A stretch of DNA of 64,000 nt, from contig NZ_JAFBIL020000004.1 in the NCBI RefSeq assembly GCF_016809835.1, positions 248,001-312,000 of the forward strand, read 5' to 3'. Below are positions 5,315 through 55,897 of the stretch, piece after piece. The position numbers were made by a program, and so were the translations under genes. The stretch is from Massilia soli (GTDB taxonomy: Bacteria > Pseudomonadota > Gammaproteobacteria > Burkholderiales > Burkholderiaceae_D). Position 1 is the stretch's first letter; each line of letters begins with the position of its first letter. The notes beneath the pieces are model-generated. The model saw nothing but the letters and a program-made list of their open reading frames with translations, had not been told where the DNA came from and did not search any database.

Positions 5315-7015
5315 ATGCTCAACAAACTGCGAATTGGCCCGAAGCTGCTGCTTGCCCCGGGCCTGGTACTGGCCCTGCTGATGCTGTTGTCGGCGGCCGC
5401 TTACTACGGCATGGTGCGCCAGAACGCATCGCTCGAAAACATGGTGCAGGTGCGCGCCGCGCGCCTCAAGGCCACCGCCGACATTTCGGGCGACGCCAAG
5501 CACGCGCACGCCAACATCTACCAGCTGCTGGCCTGGATCAACGGCAGCTTCGCCAAGAACCGCCTCGATGCGCTGACCGCCGACATCGGCAAGAAGCACA
5601 CGGCCATCAAGGCCCAGCTGACCGCGCTGGCCGCGGTGTCCGGCCCGGCCGAACGTACGCTGCTCGATGCGTCGGCCAAGTCGCTTGAGGCCTACCGCAA
5701 GAGCGTCGCCGAAACCATCGAGCTGGCGCAGGTCGACCAGTCGATCGCGACCAACTCGATGCAGAAGGCGGAGAAGGAATTCGGCATCCTGAATGGCCAC
5801 CTGGCGCAGCTGGCCGCGCGCGAAAAGGCGCTGAGCGAAGCGGCCTACGGCGAGGCCAAAAGCGAATTCCACACCTTTGGCGTGTCGCTCGCGGTGCTGG
5901 TGCTGCTGTCGATCGGCTTGTCGATGGTCGTGACGATGCTGGTGCGGCGCGCCATGCTGAAAGATATCCGCGCGATCTCGGACGTGGTCTCCGAACTGGC
6001 CCAGGGCCGCCTGAGCGCGGGCGTCGGCAACCGCGGCCGCGATGAAATCGCCGATACCTCGCGCGCGCTGGACCAGACCATCGCCAACCTGAACCAGACA
6101 TTGCGCACGGTGCTCGCGTCGGTACAGTCGATCGACACCGCGTCGCAGGAAATCGCCACCGGAAACCTCGACCTGTCGAGCCGTACCGAGATGCAGGCCG
6201 GCTCGCTGGAAGAAACCGCCAGCGCGATGGAAAGCCTGACCCTGGCGGTGAAGGAGAACGCCAACAACGCGCGCCTGGCCAACGAGCTGGCCGCCAGTGC
6301 CGCCAACCTGGCCGCCGACGGCGGCAAGGCGGTAGACCGGGCGGTGACGACCATGGAGCGCATCAAGGGAAGCTCGCGCAAGATCGTCGAGATCATCGGC
6401 GTCATCGACGGCATTTCGTTCCAGACCAATATCCTGGCGCTCAACGCCGCCGTGGAAGCGGCGCGCGCCGGCGAACAGGGACGCGGATTTGCTGTCGTGG
6501 CGGCGGAAGTGCGCACGCTGGCGCAGCGCTCGGCGGCGGCGGCCAAGGAAATCAAGGCGCTGATCGCCGATTCGGTGGCGATCATCGACGGCGGCAGCGC
6601 CTCGGTCAATGAAGCCGGCAGCAGCATGGGCCACATCGTGGCATCGGTGCGCCAGGTGAACGAGATCATCGAGCGCATCAGCGTGGCCAGTTCGCAGCAG
6701 GCCGAAGGCATCGCCGAGGTGAACAACGCGGTTGGCCAGATGGACGACATGACCCAGCAGAACGCCGCGCTGGTCGAACAGGCGGCGGCCGCTGCGGCCA
6801 GCCTGCACGAGCAGACCATCACACTGGCCGAGGCGGTCGCGGTCTTCAAGATCGACGACGGGGCCGGCGCGCCGCCGCCAGCCGGCGCCGACGAAGCGGG
6901 CTTCCATCATCCGGCCGAGCGGCGCGCCGGCGCGAGCCCGATGCGCGGCGGCCCGCCTGCCAGCATCGGCGTCAATCCATCGGTAGCAAAGCGCGCCGCC
7001 CGCCGCGCCAGCTAG
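5315..7015 (+). CDS. Methyl-accepting chemotaxis protein
   Basis: A 566-residue transmembrane chemoreceptor. It has an N-terminal membrane segment at about residues 12-31, a periplasmic helical region of about 155 residues (four-helix-bundle type), a second membrane segment near 188-210, a HAMP linker, and a long cytoplasmic signalling domain. The conserved hairpin tip is present ([20 protein letters not shown]). It would control a CheA/CheW pathway and thus motility. The C-terminus is a low-complexity Pro/Gly/Arg tail with no CheR-tethering pentapeptide. A GGGGGAA stretch lies ahead of the ATG. Its stop overlaps the stop of the convergent glycosylase gene. Confidence 0.93.
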
Positions 7016-44825: not shown

Positions 44826-45794
44826 ATGCTCTCCGAATTCGACCTCATCAAGCAATACTTCCAGCGCCAGGCACCGCGACGCGCTGTCCTCGGCATCGGC
44901 GACGATTGCGCCCTGCTGGCGCCTTCCCCCGGCATGCAGATGGCCATTTCGTGCGACATGCTGGTCGAGGGCCGGCACTTCTTCGCCGGCGCCGATGCGC
45001 GCATGCTGGGCCATAAAGCGCTGGCCGTGAACCTGTCGGACCTCGCGGCGATGGGCGCGACACCGCGCGCCTTCACGCTGGCGCTGTCGCTGCCGTCGGC
45101 TGAGCGCGCCTGGCTGGAAGGCTTTTCGGCCGGCCTGTTCGCCCTTGCCGACGCCCACCAGTGCGAACTGATCGGCGGCGATACGACCCGTGGACCGCTC
45201 AACATCTGCATCACCGTGTTCGGCGAGGTGGCGCCAGGCCGCGCCTTGCGCCGCGATGCCGCGCGGGCCGGCGACGACATCTGGATCTCGGGCACGCTGG
45301 GCGACGCGCGCCTGGCGCTGGCGGGATACCGCGACGAACTGGCGCTCGACGCCGGGCAGCTGGCCGCGGCGGCCGTGCGCATGCATGCACCGACGCCGCG
45401 CGTCGCGCTGGGCATGGCGCTGTCGGCGCACGCCGGCGCGCATGCGGCGATCGATATTTCAGATGGACTGGTGGGCGACCTGGGCCACATCCTGGCCGCC
45501 TCCGGCGTCGGCGCGACGCTCGCTGTGGACGCGCTGCCGGCCGGCCCGGTGCTGGCGACCCAGCCAACAGCGCTGAAACGGCGCTTCTGCGCGGCCGGTG
45601 GCGACGATTATGAATTGTGCTTCACCGCGCCCGCCTCGCAGCGCGCGGCGGTGATGGCGGCGGCGGCGCAAGCCGGCACGCCGGTCACCCGCGCCGGCGT
45701 CATCGAGGCCGCGGCCGGGCTGCGCCTGGTCGACGCGGCCGGCGCCGCGCTGGCGCTGGCACTGGCCGGGTTCGATCACTTCAGCGGCGACTGA
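44826..45794 (+). CDS. thiL: Thiamine-monophosphate kinase
   Basis: A 322-residue AIR-synthase-fold kinase that phosphorylates thiamine monophosphate to thiamine pyrophosphate. The N-terminus SEFDLIKQYF, VLGIGDDCALLAP, the metal site SCDMLVEGRHFF, and LIGGDTTRG all match ThiL. The ATG at 44826 fits the family start. Its last 14 bases overlap the 3' end of the convergent GGDEF-EAL gene. Confidence 0.95.
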   Translation: MLSEFDLIKQYFQRQAPRRAVLGIGDDCALLAPSPGMQMAISCDMLVEGRHFFAGADARMLGHKALAVNLSDLAAMGATPRAFTLALSLPSAERAWLEGFSAGLFALADAHQCELIGGDTTRGPLNICITVFGEVAPGRALRRDAARAGDDIWISGTLGDARLALAGYRDELALDAGQLAAAAVRMHAPTPRVALGMALSAHAGAHAAIDISDGLVGDLGHILAASGVGATLAVDALPAGPVLATQPTALKRRFCAAGGDDYELCFTAPASQRAAVMAAAAQAGTPVTRAGVIEAAAGLRLVDAAGAALALALAGFDHFSGD

Positions 45795-48378
45795 CGCGCA
45801 GGCCTTCGGCCTCTTCGTCCTGGGTGATGTTGGGGCTGCGGCGCGGGTCGTCGCGGGCGCCGTTGACGCGCCAGTAGTGGTGGAACGCCAGCCGGATATT
45901 GTCGCGCAGCTGGACGTCGTCCCACGGCTTGGTGTAGAAGCGGTAGATCGCGCCGCTGTTGATCGAATCGAGTACCGCCTGCAGGCCGGTGTCGCCGGCG
46001 AGGATGATGCGCACCGTGTCCGGGTACATTTCCTTGACCCGGCTGAGGAACTCGGTGCCGCTCATGAACGGCATGCGCTGATCGCAGACGATCACCTGCA
46101 CCTGGTGCTGGGCCAGCAGGTCGAAGCCTTCGGCCGGCGAGACCGCCGTCAGGATCTTGTAGTGGTCGCGCCTGAACAGCCGGTGCAGCGCGGCCAGCGC
46201 GTTGATGTCGTCGTCGACGATCAGCAGGGTCGGCGGTTCGGTGTCGTTGGCCGCATGGTCGTCCGGCGCGCTGCGGTTGGCCGCCACCATCTCGCCGAGC
46301 TGGCGCGCAGGCAGCGCGCGGCTGACATGGAAGCCCTGCACCTGGTCGCAGCGGTGGCGCCGCAGGTACATCAGCTGGGCGCGGCTTTCGACGCCTTCCG
46401 CAATTACTTGCATGTGCATGCTGTGCGCCATGCTGATGATCGCCAGCGCGATCGCGGCGTCGTCGGGATTGGTGGTGATGTCGCGCACAAACGCGATGTC
46501 GATCTTCAGCTTGTCGATCGGGAAGCGCTTCAGGTACGCCAGGCTTGAATAGCCGGTGCCGAAGTCGTCGATCGAAATGCTGATGCCGAGGTCGCGCAGG
46601 CGCGTGAGCACTTCGCTGGTGTGCTCGGCGTTGGCCATCAGCGCGCTTTCGGTCAGCTCCAGTTCCAGCAGCCCGGCGTCGACCCGATGGCGCGCCAGCG
46701 CCGCGCGCACCTCGCCTTCGAGATCGCCTTCGACGAACTGCCGGCTCGATACATTGACCGCCACCCGCACCTCGCCGATGCCGGAGGCCAGCCACGCCGC
46801 GATTTGGGCGCAGGCGGCGTCGATGATCCAGGCGCCGACCTTGACGATCAGGCCGGTCTCTTCGAGAATCGGCACGAATTCGGCCGGGAACACCATGCCG
46901 TAGCCGGGGCGGTGCCAGCGCAGCAGCGCTTCGACGCCGCTGATGCGGCCGCTGTTGACATTCATCTTCGGCTGGTAGTACAGCTCGAACTCGTGGTTTT
47001 CCAGCGCGCGCCGCAGCGCCACCTCGAGGTCGAGGCGCGCCAGTACCTGCACGTTCATCCCGGCGGTGAAGAAGCGGTAGCCGTCGCGGCCAGCCGCCTT
47101 GGCGCGGCCCATCGCGGTGTCGGCATACTTGATCAGGGTTTGCGGGTCGGTGGCGTCGTCCGGATACATGGCGATGCCGATGCTGGCAGTGAGCTCGAGC
47201 TGCTGGCCGGCGATATCGAACGGCGCGCGCAGCGCCTCGCGTACTTCGCTGGTGACATGCACCGCTTCATCCTGGTCGCGGGTCGGCAGGATCAGCGCGA
47301 ATTCGTCGCCGCCCAGGCGCCCCAGGGTGTCGCGCGCATGCAGGCACTGCACCAGCCGGTTGCTGAACTGGCGCAGCAGCTCGTCGCCGTGCATCGAACC
47401 GAGCGAATCGTTGACGATCTTGAAGCGATCGAGCCCGATCGACAGCACGGCCACCTGCCCCTCCCTGTCGCGCGCCATCTCGATGGTGTCGTCCAGGGTC
47501 TGGTAGAACAGCACCCGGTTCGGCAGGCCGGTCAGGCTGTCGTAATTGGCCAGGTGCTTCAGGCGCTGCTGCGCCAGGCGCCGCTCGGTGATGTCGCGCG
47601 CCACCGCGATCAGCATCGGGCGGCCGTCGCCGGCTTCGAGCTGCCAGCGCACTTCGGTCGGCACCGCCATGTCGACGCCGGCCAGTTCGGTTTCGACCAG
47701 GTCCGACTGGCGCCCGCTGGCGCCAGTCGGCGAGGCATGCGACGCCATCTGGGCGTGGGTGGCCAGGCCGAAGCCGGCCGGGTCGGCGCCGATCAGTTCC
47801 TCGCGCTGGTAGCCCAGCATGCGGCAGGCGCCATCGCTGACATCGACCAGCAGCATGCTGGCCGCGTCGATCAGGAAGATCGCGTCGGCGGTGGCGTCCA
47901 TGGCGCTGCGGAAGCGCTGCAGTTCGGCGGTACGTTCGCCGACCGTCCGTTCGAGGTGCGCGCCATAGCTGGTCGATTCGCTGTGCAGCAGGCGCATCTC
48001 GAGCAGGTTGCGGATGCGCGTGAGCACCTCGACGGCGTCGAACGGCTTGCCGATGAAGTCGCGCGCTCCCGCTTCCAGCGCCTGCACCTTCTTGTCCGGA
48101 TCGGCCGTCACCACCAGCACCGGCAGCCAGGCGCCGGTGTCGACCGGCTTCAGGGCCTGCATGACATCGAGCCCGCTCATCACCGGCATGTGCAGGTCGA
48201 GGATGATCAGGTCGTAGCGGTGCCGGGCGTGCAGCGCCGCGACCTGCCGGGGATCGGTGGTGCTGGTGACGTTCAGGTAGCCGGTGCCGGACAACAGGAC
48301 TTCGAGCAGCTCGATGTTGACCGGGTTGTCGTCGACCACCAGGATGCGCGCGCGCAGGAGTTGGTGCTGCGCGATCAA
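45781..48378 (-). CDS. REC-PAS-GGDEF-EAL-REC cyclic-di-GMP protein
   Basis: An 865-residue multidomain protein: receiver at about 14-130 (DLIILDLHMPVMSG), PAS at about 160-280, GGDEF at about 300-460 with intact LGGDEFALI, EAL at about 470-715 with VEALLRWH and DDFGTGYSSLAYLKRF, and a second receiver at about 735-855 (VIVCDQRMPFMSG). Both catalytic domains keep key residues, so it could make or degrade cyclic-di-GMP. I start at the TTG at 48378, which overlaps the stop of the hybrid kinase gene; the longer frame upstream lies inside that gene. It is the last gene of the yfiR operon and probably receives phosphate from the kinase. Confidence 0.9.
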   Translation of the reverse strand: MIAQHQLLRARILVVDDNPVNIELLEVLLSGTGYLNVTSTTDPRQVAALHARHRYDLIILDLHMPVMSGLDVMQALKPVDTGAWLPVLVVTADPDKKVQALEAGARDFIGKPFDAVEVLTRIRNLLEMRLLHSESTSYGAHLERTVGERTAELQRFRSAMDATADAIFLIDAASMLLVDVSDGACRMLGYQREELIGADPAGFGLATHAQMASHASPTGASGRQSDLVETELAGVDMAVPTEVRWQLEAGDGRPMLIAVARDITERRLAQQRLKHLANYDSLTGLPNRVLFYQTLDDTIEMARDREGQVAVLSIGLDRFKIVNDSLGSMHGDELLRQFSNRLVQCLHARDTLGRLGGDEFALILPTRDQDEAVHVTSEVREALRAPFDIAGQQLELTASIGIAMYPDDATDPQTLIKYADTAMGRAKAAGRDGYRFFTAGMNVQVLARLDLEVALRRALENHEFELYYQPKMNVNSGRISGVEALLRWHRPGYGMVFPAEFVPILEETGLIVKVGAWIIDAACAQIAAWLASGIGEVRVAVNVSSRQFVEGDLEGEVRAALARHRVDAGLLELELTESALMANAEHTSEVLTRLRDLGISISIDDFGTGYSSLAYLKRFPIDKLKIDIAFVRDITTNPDDAAIALAIISMAHSMHMQVIAEGVESRAQLMYLRRHRCDQVQGFHVSRALPARQLGEMVAANRSAPDDHAANDTEPPTLLIVDDDINALAALHRLFRRDHYKILTAVSPAEGFDLLAQHQVQVIVCDQRMPFMSGTEFLSRVKEMYPDTVRIILAGDTGLQAVLDSINSGAIYRFYTKPWDDVQLRDNIRLAFHHYWRVNGARDDPRRSPNITQDEEAEGLRVSRR

Positions 48379-50402
48379 GGCTGCGGCTCCGTGTCGGTGG
48401 CGGCGCGGCGGTCGATCCAGGCCAGCGTCGTGTTGACCGCCTCGGTGAACTCGTCGATGTTGATCGGCTTGGTCAGGTAGCGGTAGAAGCCTGCCGCCAG
48501 CCCGCGCTCGATATCGCGCGGCATGGCGTTGGCAGTCAGCGCAATCACCGGGATGTGCGCGGTACGCGGGTCGCTGCGCAGGGTCTTGAACGCATCGAGC
48601 CCGCTCACGCATGGCAGGTTCAGGTCCATCAGGATCAGGTCCGGCAGATGCAGGATCGCCATCTCGATGCCCAGATGGCCGTCCTGCGCCGCCAGCAGCC
48701 GCAGGTCGGGGCGGAAGCGCACGATCTCTTCGACCAGCTTCAGGTTGGCGGGATTGTCTTCGATGTACAGCAGCGTGTGGCGGGTGCCGGCGTCGGGCGC
48801 ATCGGCCGGCAGCGCCGGCGCCCGGGCTCCTTCGATGCTCAGCGCATGCGGCGCAGTGACCGGCAGTTCGATCCAGAACACGCTGCCGATGCCGACCCGG
48901 CTCGACACGCCGATCGCGCCATTCATCAGTTCAACCAGGCGGCGCGTGACCACCAGGCCGATGCCGGTGCCTTCTTCGCCGCTGCTTTCCTGCCCCAGCC
49001 GGTTGAATGGCTGGAACAGCAGGTCGAGCTGGTCGGGACGCAGCCCGAGGCCGGTGTCCTGCACCGCTATGCGCACCTTGCCCGGCGCGTCGAACGCGAT
49101 GTCGACCACCACCGCGCCGGCATCGCGGTTGTATTTCACCGCGTTCGAGAGCAGGTTGAGCAGCACTTGCTTGAGGCGCGTGCGGTCGGCTTCGACGACG
49201 GTGCCGCGGGCCTCGGGGAACAGCACGCGGATACCGCGCTGCGCGGCGATCGGTTCGATCATGCTGCGGCATTCGCCCATCACGTCGCCCAGCGCCACCG
49301 GCTCCAGCGACAGGTTGACGGCGCCCGCCTCCACCTTGGCCAGGTCGAGGATCTCGTTAATCAATGTCAGCAGGTGGCGGCCCGATTTCAGGATATGGCC
49401 GGCGAATTCCTTCTTTTGCGGCAGCGTCGAAGGCAGCGCGTCGGAAGTCAGGATCTGCGCAAAGCCGAGGATCGCGTTGAGCGGGGTGCGCAGCTCGTGG
49501 CTCATGGCCGACAGGAAGGCCGACTTGGCCTGGTTGGCTTCCTTGGCTTCTTCCATCGCCAGTTCAAGTTCGGCGTTGGCGGTTTCGAGCTGCAAGGTGC
49601 GTTCATGTACCCGCACTTCGAGCTGCCCGTTCAGGCGCATGACTTCCTGCTGCGCGCGGGCGCGCTCCTCGGCCTCGCGGGCGATCGCGCGGTTCGAGGT
49701 TTCCAGCTCGCCGGTGCGCTGTTCGATCTCGGTGAGCATGGCGTTGAACGAGTCGACCAGTTCGCCCGCTTCGTCGGTGCTGGTGCGCGGCGCGCGGCGC
49801 GAGTAGTCGCGGGTGCTGACCACTTCGCGCGCCACCTCGGCGATCGCGAAGATCGGCGCGGTCACGATGCGGCCGAGCCGGCGCGTGAGCAGGAACGCCA
49901 GCAGCATCGCCACCAGGGTGACCAGCAGGCCCACGCCGACGTAGTCGAGGGCGCGCGCGACCAGCGAATAGTCCGCGCGCAGGTACACGGTGCCGAGCAG
50001 CTCGCCGTTCTCGATGATGCGCCGGTACAGGAACAGGTTGCTGCCTTCGATCTGGATATTGTCGCCCAGCGCCCTGGCGGGGAACGCGCGCGCTTCGCCC
50101 GGCGCCGCATACGAAGCGAACAGCTGGCCGCGGGCATTGTAGATGGCGCCGGCGCGCACCTGCGGACGGATGCGCAGCAGCGCCAGGTTTTCCGCCGCCA
50201 GGCGCTGGTCGTCGAAACTGAGCGCGGCCGAGGTCATGTGCCCGAGCAGTTCGGCCTGGGTACTCATGTCGCCCAGCAGCGCGCGATGGTACTGGCGCAA
50301 GTCGTAGGCGATGACGATGGCGATCGATACCAGCAGCGACGCCAGCGTGGTCAGCATGACCACGACGGACAGCTTGTGGCGCAGCGAATGCATGCGGATC
50401 AT
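48375..50402 (-). CDS. Hybrid sensor histidine kinase
   Basis: A 675-residue membrane kinase. Membrane spans at about 11-33 and 150-172 enclose a periplasmic domain like CHASE8. A HAMP linker, coiled coil, HisKA (SAMSHELRTPLN with the phosphorylated histidine), HATPase (with LLSNAVKYNRDAG and a GEEGTGIGLVV box) and a C-terminal receiver (LILMDLNLPCVSG) follow. It is translationally coupled at both ends: its ATG overlaps the yfiR stop and its stop overlaps the start of the GGDEF-EAL gene. No separate HPt domain is seen. Confidence 0.93.
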   Translation of the reverse strand: MIRMHSLRHKLSVVVMLTTLASLLVSIAIVIAYDLRQYHRALLGDMSTQAELLGHMTSAALSFDDQRLAAENLALLRIRPQVRAGAIYNARGQLFASYAAPGEARAFPARALGDNIQIEGSNLFLYRRIIENGELLGTVYLRADYSLVARALDYVGVGLLVTLVAMLLAFLLTRRLGRIVTAPIFAIAEVAREVVSTRDYSRRAPRTSTDEAGELVDSFNAMLTEIEQRTGELETSNRAIAREAEERARAQQEVMRLNGQLEVRVHERTLQLETANAELELAMEEAKEANQAKSAFLSAMSHELRTPLNAILGFAQILTSDALPSTLPQKKEFAGHILKSGRHLLTLINEILDLAKVEAGAVNLSLEPVALGDVMGECRSMIEPIAAQRGIRVLFPEARGTVVEADRTRLKQVLLNLLSNAVKYNRDAGAVVVDIAFDAPGKVRIAVQDTGLGLRPDQLDLLFQPFNRLGQESSGEEGTGIGLVVTRRLVELMNGAIGVSSRVGIGSVFWIELPVTAPHALSIEGARAPALPADAPDAGTRHTLLYIEDNPANLKLVEEIVRFRPDLRLLAAQDGHLGIEMAILHLPDLILMDLNLPCVSGLDAFKTLRSDPRTAHIPVIALTANAMPRDIERGLAAGFYRYLTKPINIDEFTEAVNTTLAWIDRRAATDTEPQP

Positions 50403-50947
50403 GAGGCGCCTTCGACCCGCAGTGCGGCGGCCAGCATGCGCGCGCTGATGCGCAGGCGGCTCGGTGCGACATGGTCGAGCGCGACCTCGAAGCGCAGGCG
50501 CTCGCCGGCGACCACGAAATTGACCATGCTGCCCAGCGCCAGCGCCTCGTCGGCGTCGGTGACGGTCAGTACCGGCTGGCCGCGCGCGGCGAGCAGGTAG
50601 TCGTGGATGGAGGTCGGGTCGTGGGCGCCGACAAACAGGATGTGCAGGCCAGCGGTGGATTGACCGCGCCGGATCTTGCGGATGGCCACCGCATGGCCAT
50701 TGACGGTGCGCCCGCCGACGATGCGCGCAAGTTCCCCGGCCAGCGCGTCGTTGCCAGCCACGCCGATCTGCAGCTGGCTATTGGCATGGGAAAAACTGCC
50801 TTCGGGCCACTCGATGAAGCTGGCGAATTTATACAGGTAGGCTGCCTTGACTTCCGTCTCCAGCGGCTCGCGGGAAGCGGCCACGCCCGCTGTGGCAAGC
50901 AGGCACAGTGCCAGCCATCCGGCCACGGCGCGTCTCAGCGCGGCCAT
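50399..50947 (-). CDS. YfiR family periplasmic protein
   Basis: A 182-residue protein with a signal peptide (residues 1-26) followed by the YfiR-type domain: LETEVKAAYLYKFASFIEWP near the start and the LTVTDADEALALGSMVNFVV segment in the second half. In Pseudomonas YfiR is a periplasmic repressor of the diguanylate cyclase YfiN. Here it precedes a hybrid kinase with a periplasmic domain and a GGDEF-EAL output protein, so it may control that kinase instead. I start at the ATG at 50947, which has AGGAAG upstream. Confidence 0.87.
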   Translation of the reverse strand: MAALRRAVAGWLALCLLATAGVAASREPLETEVKAAYLYKFASFIEWPEGSFSHANSQLQIGVAGNDALAGELARIVGGRTVNGHAVAIRKIRRGQSTAGLHILFVGAHDPTSIHDYLLAARGQPVLTVTDADEALALGSMVNFVVAGERLRFEVALDHVAPSRLRISARMLAAALRVEGAS

Positions 50948-51261
50948 GGACTTCCTGGCGCGGTGCTGCGGGGACGGGCGGTAGAAACTGACATCAGTCG
51001 TGCATCCAATAGAGAGCAAATTGCACCGAAGCATGATTGGCACAAGCGCAAAGCAGGTTAGCAGACGGGACGAGAGATCGTCGCACGGCTTGCCCTGTGA
51101 AGATTGCCGTTTAGAAAAATGGGCGTATTGTTATATTTGGTGAGTATTGTACATGCCTGTCAACGCTGTGCCTGCTCGGCAATTTTCACCGGGGCGAGCG
51201 TTCACGGCGGGTAAGCGCATGGTAAAGTAGAAACGACTGATTCCGATCCGAGGAGCGACAC
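50948..51261. promoter_or_regulatory. Divergent intergenic region, yfiR operon / pncC
   Basis: This 314-bp region holds the promoters of the minus-strand yfiR operon and the plus-strand pncC unit. The part from about 51110 to 51160 is AT-rich (TATTGTTATATTTGG, TATTGTACATG) and is the likeliest promoter zone. GAGGAG before the pncC GTG is its ribosome site. I see no convincing gene, repeat or RNA element. Confidence 0.4.
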
Positions 51262-51744
51262 GTGACGAATGATATTCTCGACCTGGCCGCACGTGTTGGC
51301 CAGGCCTTGCAGGCCAAGAACCTGCTGCTGGCAACGGCCGAGTCTTGCACCGGCGGCGGCATTTCGCAGGCCATTACCGAAATTGCCGGGTCGACCAGCT
51401 GGTTCGACTGCGGCTTTGTTGCTTATTCCAATTCGTCCAAGACGGAACTGCTGGACGTCCCGGCGGCGCTGATCGCCCAGATGGGCGCGGTAAGCGAGGA
51501 AGTCGCCGCGGCCATGGCGCATGGCGCGCTGGCCAACAGCAATGCCCATGTGGCCTTGTCGACGACCGGCATTGCCGGGCCAACCGGCGCCGTTCCAGGC
51601 AAGCCGGTGGGCACCGTCTGCTTCGGCTGGGTCAAGGGCGATCACGCCTACACGGAGCGGCTGGTGTTTGCCGGCGACCGCAAGGCCGTGCGCGAGCAGA
51701 CGGTCGTGCACGCACTGCAAGGGCTGCTGCGTTTCATCGAATAA
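51262..51744 (+). CDS. pncC: Nicotinamide-nucleotide amidohydrolase (CinA C-terminal domain family)
   Basis: A 160-residue single-domain CinA-C protein. The conserved LLLATAESCTGGGISQAI (with the active-site serine), STSWFDCGFVAYSNSSK, and TTGIAGPTGAVPGKPVGTVCF are diagnostic. It deamidates nicotinamide mononucleotide to nicotinate mononucleotide in NAD recycling. The start is GTG with a GAGGAG ribosome site. The next gene begins at the base after its stop codon. Confidence 0.94.
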   Translation: MTNDILDLAARVGQALQAKNLLLATAESCTGGGISQAITEIAGSTSWFDCGFVAYSNSSKTELLDVPAALIAQMGAVSEEVAAAMAHGALANSNAHVALSTTGIAGPTGAVPGKPVGTVCFGWVKGDHAYTERLVFAGDRKAVREQTVVHALQGLLRFIE

Positions 51745-52641
51745 GTGGGGGGCGCGGCAACGGGTTTGCTGGGGCTGGCGCTGGCAGCGAACGCTGCCGG
51801 CCCGGTAGCGCTTGCCCATGCGCAGGAATACACGGTGTACGCGGCGGGCGACATTGCCTGGTGCGACCATCCCGATCCGGCCTGGTCGGGCGCCGCCGCG
51901 ACCGCCAAGGTGGTCGAGACCGGCCTGGCAGCCAGTCCCCACGCCGCCGTGCTGCTGCTGGGCGACATCACCTACCCGCGCGGCAGGCTGCGCGAATTTA
52001 CCGAGTGCTATCACCCGACCTGGGGCCGGTTCAAGGAACGCACCTGGCCCTCGCCCGGCAACCACGAATACCTGACCCCGGGAGCGCGCGGCTACTTCGA
52101 CTATTTCGGCAGCGCGGCCGGCGCCGGCTACTACCGTATCAAGCTCGGCAGCTGGCAAGTCTATTCGCTCGACAGCAACCTCGCGCCCGGCCCCGCTGCC
52201 GCCCAGCTGGCGTGGCTGAAGCAGGAACTGGCCGCCAATCCATCGCACTGCATCCTCGCGTACTGGCATCACCCGCTGTATAGTTCTGGCGGACATGGCA
52301 GCATCGCGCGCATGGCTGGGGCGTGGCGCAGCTTGCACGATGCGGGGGCGGAAATCGTACTGTCGGGACACGATCACGATTACGAACGCTTCGCCCCGCA
52401 GGATGCGGCCGGCAACCGCGACGCGCGCGGCATCCGCCAGTTTGTCGTGGGCACCGGCGGCGCCTATGCCACGCCGTTTTTGTTACCATTGCGCAATAGC
52501 GAAAAACGCGACAACAGCCGCACCGGTGTGCTCAGGCTGGTCTTGAAAGAAGGCGCCTACGAATGGGCATTCCTGGAAGCGGCGTACCAGGGATTCCCGA
52601 ACGGTAACGCGCCCGACCGCGGCGAAGGCAATTGCCACTAG
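51745..52641 (+). CDS. Secreted metallophosphatase
   Basis: A 298-residue calcineurin-like phosphoesterase of the purple-acid-phosphatase type. Metal ligands are visible in AAGDIAWCD, LLLGDITYP, PSPGNHEYL, WHHPLYSSGGH and SGHDHDYERF. The N-terminus (about 27 residues, ending AHAQ) is hydrophobic and would export it to the periplasm, but it lacks the usual positive charge. The GTG start directly follows the pncC stop codon, so translation is likely coupled. Substrate unknown. Confidence 0.85.
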   Translation: MGGAATGLLGLALAANAAGPVALAHAQEYTVYAAGDIAWCDHPDPAWSGAAATAKVVETGLAASPHAAVLLLGDITYPRGRLREFTECYHPTWGRFKERTWPSPGNHEYLTPGARGYFDYFGSAAGAGYYRIKLGSWQVYSLDSNLAPGPAAAQLAWLKQELAANPSHCILAYWHHPLYSSGGHGSIARMAGAWRSLHDAGAEIVLSGHDHDYERFAPQDAAGNRDARGIRQFVVGTGGAYATPFLLPLRNSEKRDNSRTGVLRLVLKEGAYEWAFLEAAYQGFPNGNAPDRGEGNCH

Positions 52642-52680
52642 CCGCTGGCACATGGTCTCACTCATATTTGGAGCAATTCG

Positions 52681-53409
52681 ATGCACAACACGGTTCACTT
52701 CATCCTCCAGGGCAAGGGCGGCATCGGCAAGACCCTGGTGTCGACCATCCTCGCGCAATGGCTCGCCCCGAAGGACGAGACGGCGCTGCGCTGCTTCGAT
52801 ACGGACCAGGAAAACGCCACCTTCTCGCGCTACAAGGCGATGAACGTGAAGCACGTCCCGGTGATGACCGACAACCGCATGATCGACCCGAAGCGCTTCG
52901 ACGCGCTGATGATCGATATCCTCGAAGAAGAAGGCAACTGCGTGGTCGACAACGGCGCCAACACCTTCTCGCCGCTGATGGCCTACCTGCTGGAGAACGA
53001 CTGCTTCGCGCTGCTGGAGGAATCGGGGCGCAAGGTGTATGTGCACGTCATCGTCGGCGGCGGCGACACCCTGCACGACACCGCGATGGGATTCGTGTCG
53101 ACCGCCAAGTCGACCAATGTGCCGCTGGTGCTGTGGGAGAACGAACACTTCGGCCTGCTGCAATCGGCCAGCGGCAAGCAGTTCACCAACTCGGCCACCT
53201 ATGAAGACAACGCCAAGCGCGTGGTAGGCCGGGTGGTGCTGTCGCAGCGTAACGCCGACACCTTCGGGGCCGACCTCAAGAAAATGAACATTGCCCGCCT
53301 GACCGCCGATGAAGTGCGCGCCAGCGAAAAGTTCAACGTGATGGAGAAGCAACGCATCAAGGTGGTGTTCCGCGACCTGTTCGAGCAACTCGACAAAGTG
53401 CAGTGGTAA
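52681..53409 (+). CDS. TraL-like P-loop ATPase
   Basis: A 242-residue ParA/MinD-like NTPase that closely resembles TraL of IncP plasmid RP4, as I recall it. Shared features are the start FILQGKGGIGKTLVS (deviant Walker A), FDTDQENATFSRYKAMNV, VVDNGANTFSPLMAYLL, and the end RQRIKVVFRDLFEQLD. In RP4 TraL lies between relaxosome genes and is not well understood. No relaxase, coupling protein or mating-pair gene is present here. It is followed six bases later by a TraM-like gene. GGAG upstream of the ATG is the ribosome site. Its role outside conjugation is unknown. Confidence 0.85.
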   Translation: MHNTVHFILQGKGGIGKTLVSTILAQWLAPKDETALRCFDTDQENATFSRYKAMNVKHVPVMTDNRMIDPKRFDALMIDILEEEGNCVVDNGANTFSPLMAYLLENDCFALLEESGRKVYVHVIVGGGDTLHDTAMGFVSTAKSTNVPLVLWENEHFGLLQSASGKQFTNSATYEDNAKRVVGRVVLSQRNADTFGADLKKMNIARLTADEVRASEKFNVMEKQRIKVVFRDLFEQLDKVQW

Positions 53410-53415
53410 GCGGCC

Positions 53416-53919
53416 ATGGACCAGCAAAAACTGCGCACCCTGGTGTTTGAAAAGACCGGCGTCAAGATCGACGTCGACGACCCGGTATTTGCCCTGGTCG
53501 CCCTGAACGAAGCGGTGCTGGCCGAAGCGGTCGAGCGCCATGTGGCGCTGCTGGACGATGCCACCGGCGAGCTGGCCGCCCAGGTGCAGGCGCTGCAGAA
53601 TGGCGGCCACATCGAACGCCCGGCCGCGCCGCGCGCCGCGCCTGCCGCCGCCAGTGCCGCGCGCGGGCCGATGCTGGCCGGCGACAAGCGGATGATCGCG
53701 TTGGCCGGCGGCGCCGCGCTGCTGGGCGCGCTGCTGGTGCTGCTCGGCCAGGCCGCCTTCTTCCGCCCACCTCCTGCGCCGGCGCCGATTGTGCAAGCCA
53801 GGGAACTGACTGCCGAACAAACCCAGGCCTTGGCGAACGCCGACAAGATGGCGCGCGCCGTCGAAAAACTCGACGCCAAAAGCCGCAAGCTGATTCAGAC
53901 TGAAATGCAGAAACCCTGA
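53416..53919 (+). CDS. TraM-like membrane protein
   Basis: A 167-residue protein. The N-terminal 40 residues (LVFEKTGVKIDVDDPVFALV) resemble the start of plasmid TraM-type proteins encoded next to TraL. An Ala/Pro-rich linker follows, then one membrane span at about 93-114 and a charged C-terminal helix. It would be a bitopic inner-membrane protein with the N-terminus probably in the cytoplasm, where the TraL-like ATPase could bind. Assignment rests mainly on the short N-terminal likeness and the adjacency to the TraL-like gene. It ends two bases before the CDF transporter start. Confidence 0.7.
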   Translation: MDQQKLRTLVFEKTGVKIDVDDPVFALVALNEAVLAEAVERHVALLDDATGELAAQVQALQNGGHIERPAAPRAAPAAASAARGPMLAGDKRMIALAGGAALLGALLVLLGQAAFFRPPPAPAPIVQARELTAEQTQALANADKMARAVEKLDAKSRKLIQTEMQKP

Positions 53920-53921
53920 CC

Positions 53922-54881
53922 ATGCCGCACGATCATCACGAACACAGCCATGACCACGGACACAGCCACGGTCATGGCCGCGGGCATCATCACCATCACA
54001 TTTCGCCCGATGGCAACAACCGCGCGTTTGCGCTGGCGATCGGACTGAACACGATTTTTGTCGCCATCGAATTTACCTACGGCTTCATCGCCAACTCGAC
54101 CGCGCTGATGGCCGACGCCGGGCACAACCTGTCGGACGTGCTGGGCCTGGTGCTGGCGTGGGGCGCGGCCATGCTGGCGCGCACCGCGACAACCCAGCGC
54201 TACACCTACGGCCTGCGCAGCAGCTCGATCCTGGCGGCAGTGCTTAACGCCTTGCTGCTGATGCTGGCGTGCGGCGCGATCGCTTGGGAAGCCGTACACC
54301 GCCTCAACAACCCTGCGCCGGTGGCCGGCATGACGGTATCGGTGGTCGCGGCGATCGGCGTGGCGGTCAATGGCCTGTCGGCCTGGCTATTCATGGCCGG
54401 CAGCAAGGACGACCTGAACATCCGCGGCGCCTACCAGCACATGGCGGCGGACGCGGCTATTTCGCTGGGCGTGGTGGTATCTGGGCTGGCGATCATGGCG
54501 ACCGGCTGGAGCTGGCTGGACCCGGCGGTCAGCCTGGTGATCGTGCTGCTAATTCTGGTCAGCACCTGGGGCCTGCTACGCGAATCGATGCAACTGGTAC
54601 TGGGCGCGGTGCCGCCGAATGTCGACGCCGGCAAGGTGGCGGCATTTCTGCGCGGCCAGCCCGGCGTGAGCGATATCCACGACCTGCACATCTGGGCCAT
54701 GAGCACGACCGAAAATGCGCTGACCGTACACCTGGTCATGCCTGGCAGCTATCCTGGCGACCAGGCGTTCGACGCCATCACCGCAGGTCTGAAAGACAAG
54801 TTCCCGATCCACCACTGCACCTTGCAGATGGAACACGGCACCACTGACCACACCTGCGCCCTCGACGCACACGCGCACTAA
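53922..54881 (+). CDS. Cation diffusion facilitator metal exporter
   Basis: A 319-residue CDF transporter with six membrane spans. The N-terminal tail (residues 3-26) is extremely rich in histidine (HDHGHSHGHGRGHHHHH), typical of zinc, cobalt or nickel exporters of the CzcD/DmeF type. The transport-site His/Asp pairs are in MADAGHNLSDVLG and HMAADAAISLG, and the C-terminal cytoplasmic domain has DLHIWAMS. It uses the proton gradient to expel divalent metals. Close spacing suggests co-transcription with the TraL/TraM-like genes. A large inverted repeat follows. Confidence 0.92.
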   Translation: MPHDHHEHSHDHGHSHGHGRGHHHHHISPDGNNRAFALAIGLNTIFVAIEFTYGFIANSTALMADAGHNLSDVLGLVLAWGAAMLARTATTQRYTYGLRSSSILAAVLNALLLMLACGAIAWEAVHRLNNPAPVAGMTVSVVAAIGVAVNGLSAWLFMAGSKDDLNIRGAYQHMAADAAISLGVVVSGLAIMATGWSWLDPAVSLVIVLLILVSTWGLLRESMQLVLGAVPPNVDAGKVAAFLRGQPGVSDIHDLHIWAMSTTENALTVHLVMPGSYPGDQAFDAITAGLKDKFPIHHCTLQMEHGTTDHTCALDAHAH

Positions 54882-54890
54882 AAACGAACG

Positions 54891-54958
54891 TTCCAAAATC
54901 GGGGACAGACCACCATTTTGGAACATTCCAAAATGGTGGTCTGTCCCCGATTTTGGAA
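54891..54958. repeat. Perfect 33-bp inverted repeat with 2-bp spacer
   Basis: The left arm (54891-54923) and right arm (54926-54958) are exact reverse complements separated by CA. Each arm is itself bounded by TTCCAAAAT and ATTTTGGAA, so smaller hairpins can form inside the large one. The core GGGGACAGACCACC is not a usual terminator stem. It lies between two convergent genes and is followed by GTTTTTC, so it could end transcription as well. The last 19 bases recur at 12688-12706. It may be a REP-like or non-autonomous mobile element. Confidence 0.9.
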
Positions 54959-54967
54959 GTTTTTCGA

Positions 54968-55897
<930 letters not shown>

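Follow-up and report, generated by a model that had tools for sequence, protein, structure and literature searches.

A conserved chromosomal TraL/TraM-like gene pair in Massilia soli and its relatives, with a possible role in intracellular positioning

The window analysed here, a stretch of 64,000 nucleotides of Massilia soli (contig NZ_JAFBIL020000004.1, positions 248,001 to 312,000; here contig C34, with 520,906 bases, in a genome of 4.99 Mb), carries two adjacent genes whose products resemble the plasmid proteins TraL and TraM. The pair is real, well conserved in one group of bacteria from soil and water and, within the literature searched, undescribed: among the literature matches listed, no paper dealt with a chromosomal TraL/TraM pair in this bacterial group, and none described a host-placing role for any StbB/TraL protein. 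We favour the reading, with a probability of about 0.5, that a StbB/TraL-TraM pair was captured from a plasmid, kept on the chromosome and reused for intracellular positioning. The fuller claim, that this conjugation-derived ParA-like ATPase and its membrane-anchored TraM partner now place a host complex or the nucleoid as a cellular system, is put forward tentatively, at somewhat less than even odds. If true, this would plainly exemplify how a positioning module of mobile elements can become one of the host; and as the pair occurs without adjoining transfer genes in culturable bacteria, what it does by itself and what TraM contributes could be tested in isolation. The pair had been pointed out in a first-pass annotation made from the sequence alone; the observation itself is confirmed here and the interpretation partly supported.

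The product of the first gene matches the NCBIfam model NF010461, 'conjugal transfer protein TraL', over residues 4-240 (E 3.7e-59, 200 bits), in agreement with the first-pass description of a protein that is like RP4 TraL over its whole length. The next best profile is a ParA partition model at E 0.001, and the listed ParA, Mrp, ArsA and MinD models score 0.001 or worse, so that the protein is clearly closer to TraL than to ParA proteins in general. Compared with the top 20 plasmid rows, identity amounts to 51-56% with 99-100% of the length covered. A deviant Walker A motif, GKGGIGKT, is found at residues 11-18, and the Walker B region reads CVVDNGA (D90); the KGGxxK[T/S] motif is present as KGGIGKT (residues 12-18) and is invariant in a 16-row alignment. 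Codon conservation is spread over the gene, at 0.76-0.87 per block. A sequence search of solved structures returned weak matches, the best with E 0.018. The sequence shows the fold of the ParA/MinD family and an intact deviant Walker A motif, and full-length homology together with the place in the family tree, the root of which is not certain, assigns the protein to the broad group of StbB/TraL-like ATPases.

For the second product, in which a TraM-like start and a membrane span had been noticed, single-sequence matches are weak (NF010470, E 0.0029, 17.3 bits for a cut-off of 139; PF11657, E 0.043, 14.2 bits for a cut-off of 24.4). Profile-profile comparison with hhalign of 82 chromosomal orthologues and 25 TraMs of mobile elements gave a probability of 99.3 and E 5e-20, and 23 of the 25 mobile TraMs pass the HMMER inclusion threshold. 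The mobile set comprises 25 of 29 rows, L149, L172, L176 and L185 being excluded as their next open reading frame (ORF) is not TraM-looking; L135, whose reading frame looks broken, and L140, in the wrong frame, are excluded from the profile, hydropathy and conservation sets, and L135 also from two further alignments (A5 and A4). Profile homology, the place after TraL and a single membrane span thus confirm, at the level of sequence, that the protein is a TraM homologue.

The chromosomal and mobile TraMs share an N-terminal block that has DDPxF..LN as its core and in the chromosomal proteins extends over ~45 residues (LRxLVFEKTGVKIDxDDPxFALVALNEAVL), where it is followed by a variable linker. 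The mean frequency of the majority residue is 0.85 in this block versus 0.61 in the rest (82 rows). The window TraM has one membrane span, at residues ~93-111 with a hydropathy peak of 2.35, followed by a tail of 56 residues, and a span (hydropathy >=1.6) is found in all 75 named orthologues scored. Tails of 56-59 residues occur in the window protein and the four longest orthologues; in the six shortest (113-121 residues, Janthinobacterium) the span ends 2-4 residues before the C-terminus, and in 14 of the 19 mobile TraMs scored it lies within 5 residues of it. A search of 8 genomes for a second client of the N-terminal block yielded, beyond TraM and the genome's own conjugative TraM, two matches at E 0.6-0.9, which are taken as chance.

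A pattern-based scan of named genomes gave 122 relatives; the 80 best were retained as named loci and belong to Massilia, Rugamonas, Duganella, Pseudoduganella and Janthinobacterium, with some unclassified records. TraM directly follows TraL in 77/77 testable named loci (in L114, L118 and L134 the sequence after TraL is too short for the test, and the TraM of L140 was counted in its right frame). In the family sample TraL is matched at E<=1e-20 in 139/392 genomes and at E<=1e-100 in 125/392, the latter in 11 of 44 genera. The pair is found in 17/17 genomes of the window's own genus, one being cut by a contig end and one split between frames, in 64/74 genomes of a second genus and in 5/62 of a third. 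In the class sample 4/369 genomes match and, besides the window's own, the other three do so at mobile-type scores. Pairing is constant in the main clade, where the locus is also fixed: pncC, often a metallophosphoesterase gene, TraL-TraM, an M16 peptidase gene and/or ArsR-CDF, then cysM. Deeper relatives have other gene contexts around the pair.

The origin of the pair was examined on a tree of 29 chromosomal TraL rows (the window and, picked by hand, 20 named loci from the set of 80 plus 8 others), 29 rows from mobile elements or viral contigs, and R388 StbB; not used were L028, truncated at the end of a contig, and the TraL of G005 (L026/L066), which is divided over two reading frames in a record of 48% completeness. 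The chromosomal rows need a single change on this tree and lie among the mobile TraLs, and support is 99/97 for the group that joins the chromosomal rows with a Caballeronia plasmid row and the Massilia-type mobile rows L034 and L182. The chromosomal copies are likely to derive from mobile ones, a direction that is not proven, as the root is a midpoint set by the long StbB branch. L034, from a Massilia putida plasmid record, and L182 have TraLs of 52-53% identity and encode the two best-scoring mobile TraMs against the chromosomal profile; they and the Caballeronia row are the closest relatives from mobile elements in the tree. Unlike the chromosomal pair, L034 and L182 stand in a mobilisation context: the L034 record is typed as MOBP, and L182 has MobC and relaxase matches less than 1 kb from its TraL, the latter pointing to a mobilisable element of MOBP type as the source. 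A phage origin was considered and rejected, the pattern-based scan having given two viral contigs with distant relatives (34-38% identity).

Sequence evolution evidences purifying selection on TraL, with a ratio of nonsynonymous to synonymous substitution rates (dN/dS) of 0.11-0.27 over 13 comparisons. TraL has a lower dN than PncC in 13/13 comparisons and than CysM in 10/12, its protein identity is above that of PncC in 13/13, and its dS is below that of PncC in 12/13. TraL has a codon adaptation of 0.71, which falls inside the leave-one-out range for the S7, EF-G, EF-Tu, rpoB and rpoC genes (0.63-0.79) and is the fifth highest among the 58 ORFs of a rough set; that set was assembled greedily in favour of high codon adaptation and not from gene annotation. 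On a second scale, in which the reference gene S12 was mis-started (the 0.71 index was computed without S12), the conjugative TraL of the same genome reaches 0.45 versus 0.73 for the chromosomal one. Such host-like codon usage suggests high expression.

Transfer genes are not found beside the pair. A tblastn search (E 1e-4) with 39 conjugation or plasmid proteins gave no match in the window or in ~8 kb around the pair at the 80 named loci, integrases and the origin of transfer (oriT) not being among the items searched for; within this scope the first-pass statement that conjugation genes are missing from the window holds, and no conjugative element was found adjoining the pair in its named relatives. 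As a control, the same proteins match 7/10 mobile loci and nothing in L184, L185 and L192, which were labelled 'mobile' from sequence alone. The StbA, TraK and StbA-like queries among the 39 likewise gave no match in the window and 80 loci, where a distant StbA could have been missed since, in the available text of PMC3098194, StbA is called poorly conserved. Genome-wide, VirB4 (PF03135) is matched in 2/17 genomes of the window's genus and the relaxase family PF03432, the one relaxase family tested, in 6/17, with neither in 11/17. The window's own genome has VirB4 matches on contigs C22 and C33, and contig C22 (643 kb) bears an RP4-type run (L038, 9555-16536) with its own TraM, TraL, relaxase (857 residues) and TraG, the coupling protein measuring 659 residues; this run may be an integrated conjugative element. 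A single origin on the tree, a fixed main-clade locus, wide presence, purifying selection and the finding of no tra genes within ~8 kb at the 80 named loci make the proposal of a domesticated chromosomal module of ATPase and membrane anchor well supported.

The pair is most readily compared with the StbABC/TraKLM operon of plasmid leading regions (R388 StbB, RP4 TraL). According to the available text of PMC3098194, TraL_RP4 is counted among the StbB-like proteins, and the arrival of plasmid copies at the poles requires R388 StbB, as does transfer when StbA is present. Shared with this operon are the ParA-type ATPase with KGGxxK[T/S] in the TraL group, the B-C gene order, and a small membrane-span protein with a GIxIxxDDP-type N-terminal block encoded directly after the ATPase. 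The chromosomal pair differs in that no StbA/TraK-like, relaxase or type IV secretion system gene was found beside it (oriT not having been searched for), and in being chromosomal, retained widely within a single bacterial group, slow to evolve and host-like in codon usage. Since the ATPase and an anchored partner with its N-terminal block are kept and no StbA-like gene was found, the pair may be seen as a two-part positioning system minus the DNA tether, with TraM on the membrane side.

We thus propose that the StbB/TraL-TraM module comes from a conjugative or mobilisable plasmid, probably of MOBP type, and that it entered the chromosome of an ancestor of the Massilia/Duganella/Janthinobacterium group and has been kept since. 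As far as the accessible part of PMC10241942 goes, ParA/MinD ATPases dimerise and the charged N-terminus of the partner contacts the ATPase and stimulates it; that study of several ParA/MinD ATPases in one bacterium omitted the conjugation-linked one, for which data were limited. By analogy with the family, TraL would form ATP-dependent dimers, and TraM, anchored in the inner membrane through its single span, would use its conserved N-terminal block, carried on a flexible linker, to bind TraL and stimulate the ATPase activity of TraL. Cycling of TraL between two surfaces would then place a cargo which, in the least supported step, may no longer be a plasmid but a component of the host, either the nucleoid or an envelope complex.

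A number of observations weigh against positioning of a host cargo by a captured plasmid pair. The TraL score lies below the NF010461 curated cut-off (200 versus 360 bits), which makes the protein a relative outside the narrow IncP group, and TraM stays under the curated cut-offs of both PF11657 and NF010470. On the tree, the chromosomal group alone has support of only 76/78, where the Caballeronia row has a long branch, and its nesting hinges on a midpoint root set by the very long R388 StbB branch. TraL dN/dS is above that of PncC in 10/13 comparisons, as TraL dS is low. The pair was not found in 10/74 and 57/62 genomes of two genera and is in this sense dispensable; furthermore, at L187 (G606, 5598-6545, minus strand) a chromosomal-type TraL has no TraM found beside it, its ORF being open for 73 more codons upstream, and this is possibly a variant with another partner. 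As to mechanism, the first 45 residues of TraM hold 8 acidic and 5 basic residues, unlike the basic partner peptides in the accessible part of PMC10241942, and the TraL C-terminal helix (220-238) is not unusually amphipathic, with a moment of 0.35 that is reached by 548/2000 shuffles, which lends no support to a membrane anchor like that of MinD. In the available text of PMC3098194, deletion of R388 StbC, which corresponds to TraM by position, gave no phenotype, and StbC was termed an orphan. Lastly, no direct sign of a cargo was found.

The main competing explanation is that the pair still acts on mobile DNA, either as a host-borne helper or as an interfering decoy for conjugative elements. 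It is suggested by the plasmid-type N-terminal block that TraM keeps and by the TraL core common to the plasmid versions, and further by the tra module in the same genome and by the absence of the module in places, as is seen for defence-like genes. Yet mobile-type TraL occurs in 12/125 genomes with the chromosomal TraL and in 14/267 without it (Fisher p 0.13, uncorrected for kinship), which gives no sign of exclusion between the two, nor of a clear association, and leaves room for helper or modulating roles. The low dN of TraL and the lack of a convincing match in PADLOC (Cas12b models at E 0.016 being the best) also speak against it, and on the latter ground a defence system was rejected. 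Overall we consider action on mobile DNA unlikely. Slightly less probable in our estimation is a paired positioning system whose cargo is the chromosome or a structure of cell division or the cell pole, similar to MipZ or FlhG. With the chromosomal ParA/Soj, MinD, MipZ, FlhG, ParC and McdA systems the pair has in common the fold, the deviant Walker A motif and a dedicated partner gene, but sequence similarity is marginal (E 0.001 and worse), the partner is of the plasmid type with a single span, and no cargo gene is evident in the operon. That the pair is an inert remnant of an integrated plasmid or integrative and conjugative element would agree with its plasmid ancestry on the tree and patchy presence in one genus, but is very improbable given that the pair is intact in records of five named genera, dN/dS is well below 1, codon usage is host-like and no other tra gene was found in 81 loci.

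Regulation or anchoring of the metal exporter, next to which the first-pass annotation had noted the pair, has an equally slight probability. The gap between the TraM-like and CDF genes is 2 bp in the window and similarly tight in L069-L071. Over 81 loci (the window and its 80 named relatives), however, the nearest labelled gene downstream of TraM is ArsR in 48, M16 peptidase in 16 and CDF in only 8 (6 have no labelled gene and in 3 the TraM sequence is missing), and 14 loci have an M16 peptidase gene with no CDF match in the stretch examined. Upstream of TraL the nearest labelled gene is PncC in 46/81, metallophosphoesterase in 26/81 and a TPR-GGDEF gene in 9/81. From the 67 genomes without the pair in two genera, 14 corresponding loci were located and 11 examined: pncC is present and neither TraL nor TraM is matched beside it in 11/11, ArsR and CDF are near pncC in 10/11, and in one of them (L226) 32 bp separate the metallophosphoesterase and M16 peptidase matches. 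Varied neighbours and the retention of ArsR and CDF at loci lacking the pair indicate that the pair is the conserved unit and CDF a passing neighbour, and on these grounds the exporter link was rejected. The tight run from pncC to CDF described at first is present in the window, but it is a trait of this lineage and not of the module.

Table 1. Coordinates of the gene pair and adjacent features in the window
Feature	Position	Strand	Remarks
traL-like (StbB-type) ParA/MinD-family ATPase gene	52681..53409	+	242 aa, ATG start
traM-like partner gene	53416..53919	+	167 aa
CDF-family metal exporter gene	53922..54881	+	TIGR01297 E 3.8e-74; lineage-specific neighbour, outside the module
pncC (nicotinamide-nucleotide amidase)	51262..51744	+	GTG start; PF02464 E 4.5e-56; neighbour, outside the module
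Metallophosphoesterase gene	51745..52641	+	GTG start; PF00149 E 1.2e-10; neighbour, outside the module
GGAG, ribosome-binding-site-like, upstream of traL	52670..52673	+	conservation across loci

By their ORFs, the five genes listed in Table 1 form one run on the plus strand of the window. The GGAG motif is among the best-kept upstream positions and is ungapped over the 81 loci. A promoter and terminator scan of 50800-55200 found sites no more frequent than in shuffled sequences. The CDF gene of the window is not preceded by an ArsR gene, in contrast with the 48/81 loci where ArsR is nearest after TraM, and a loss of this regulator in the window lineage is possible. Between the convergent CDF and cysM genes lies a perfect-looking inverted repeat (54891-54958), with a 32-pair stem and a 4-nt loop and a minimum free energy of -62.9 kcal/mol (z -12.7 for 54880-54966); its arms, GGGGACAGACCAC, recur upstream of TraL in Janthinobacterium fluminis (L148, 7856-7910), and the repeat may be a mobile hairpin or an element of the repetitive extragenic palindromic (REP) type. 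On the other side of the locus, beside pncC and on the minus strand (45781-51043), genes for a response regulator-PAS-GGDEF-EAL protein, a CHASE8 hybrid histidine kinase and a YfiR-like (DUF4154) protein stand in a row, likely a cyclic-di-GMP signalling cluster, which is seen again at the locus in many relatives.
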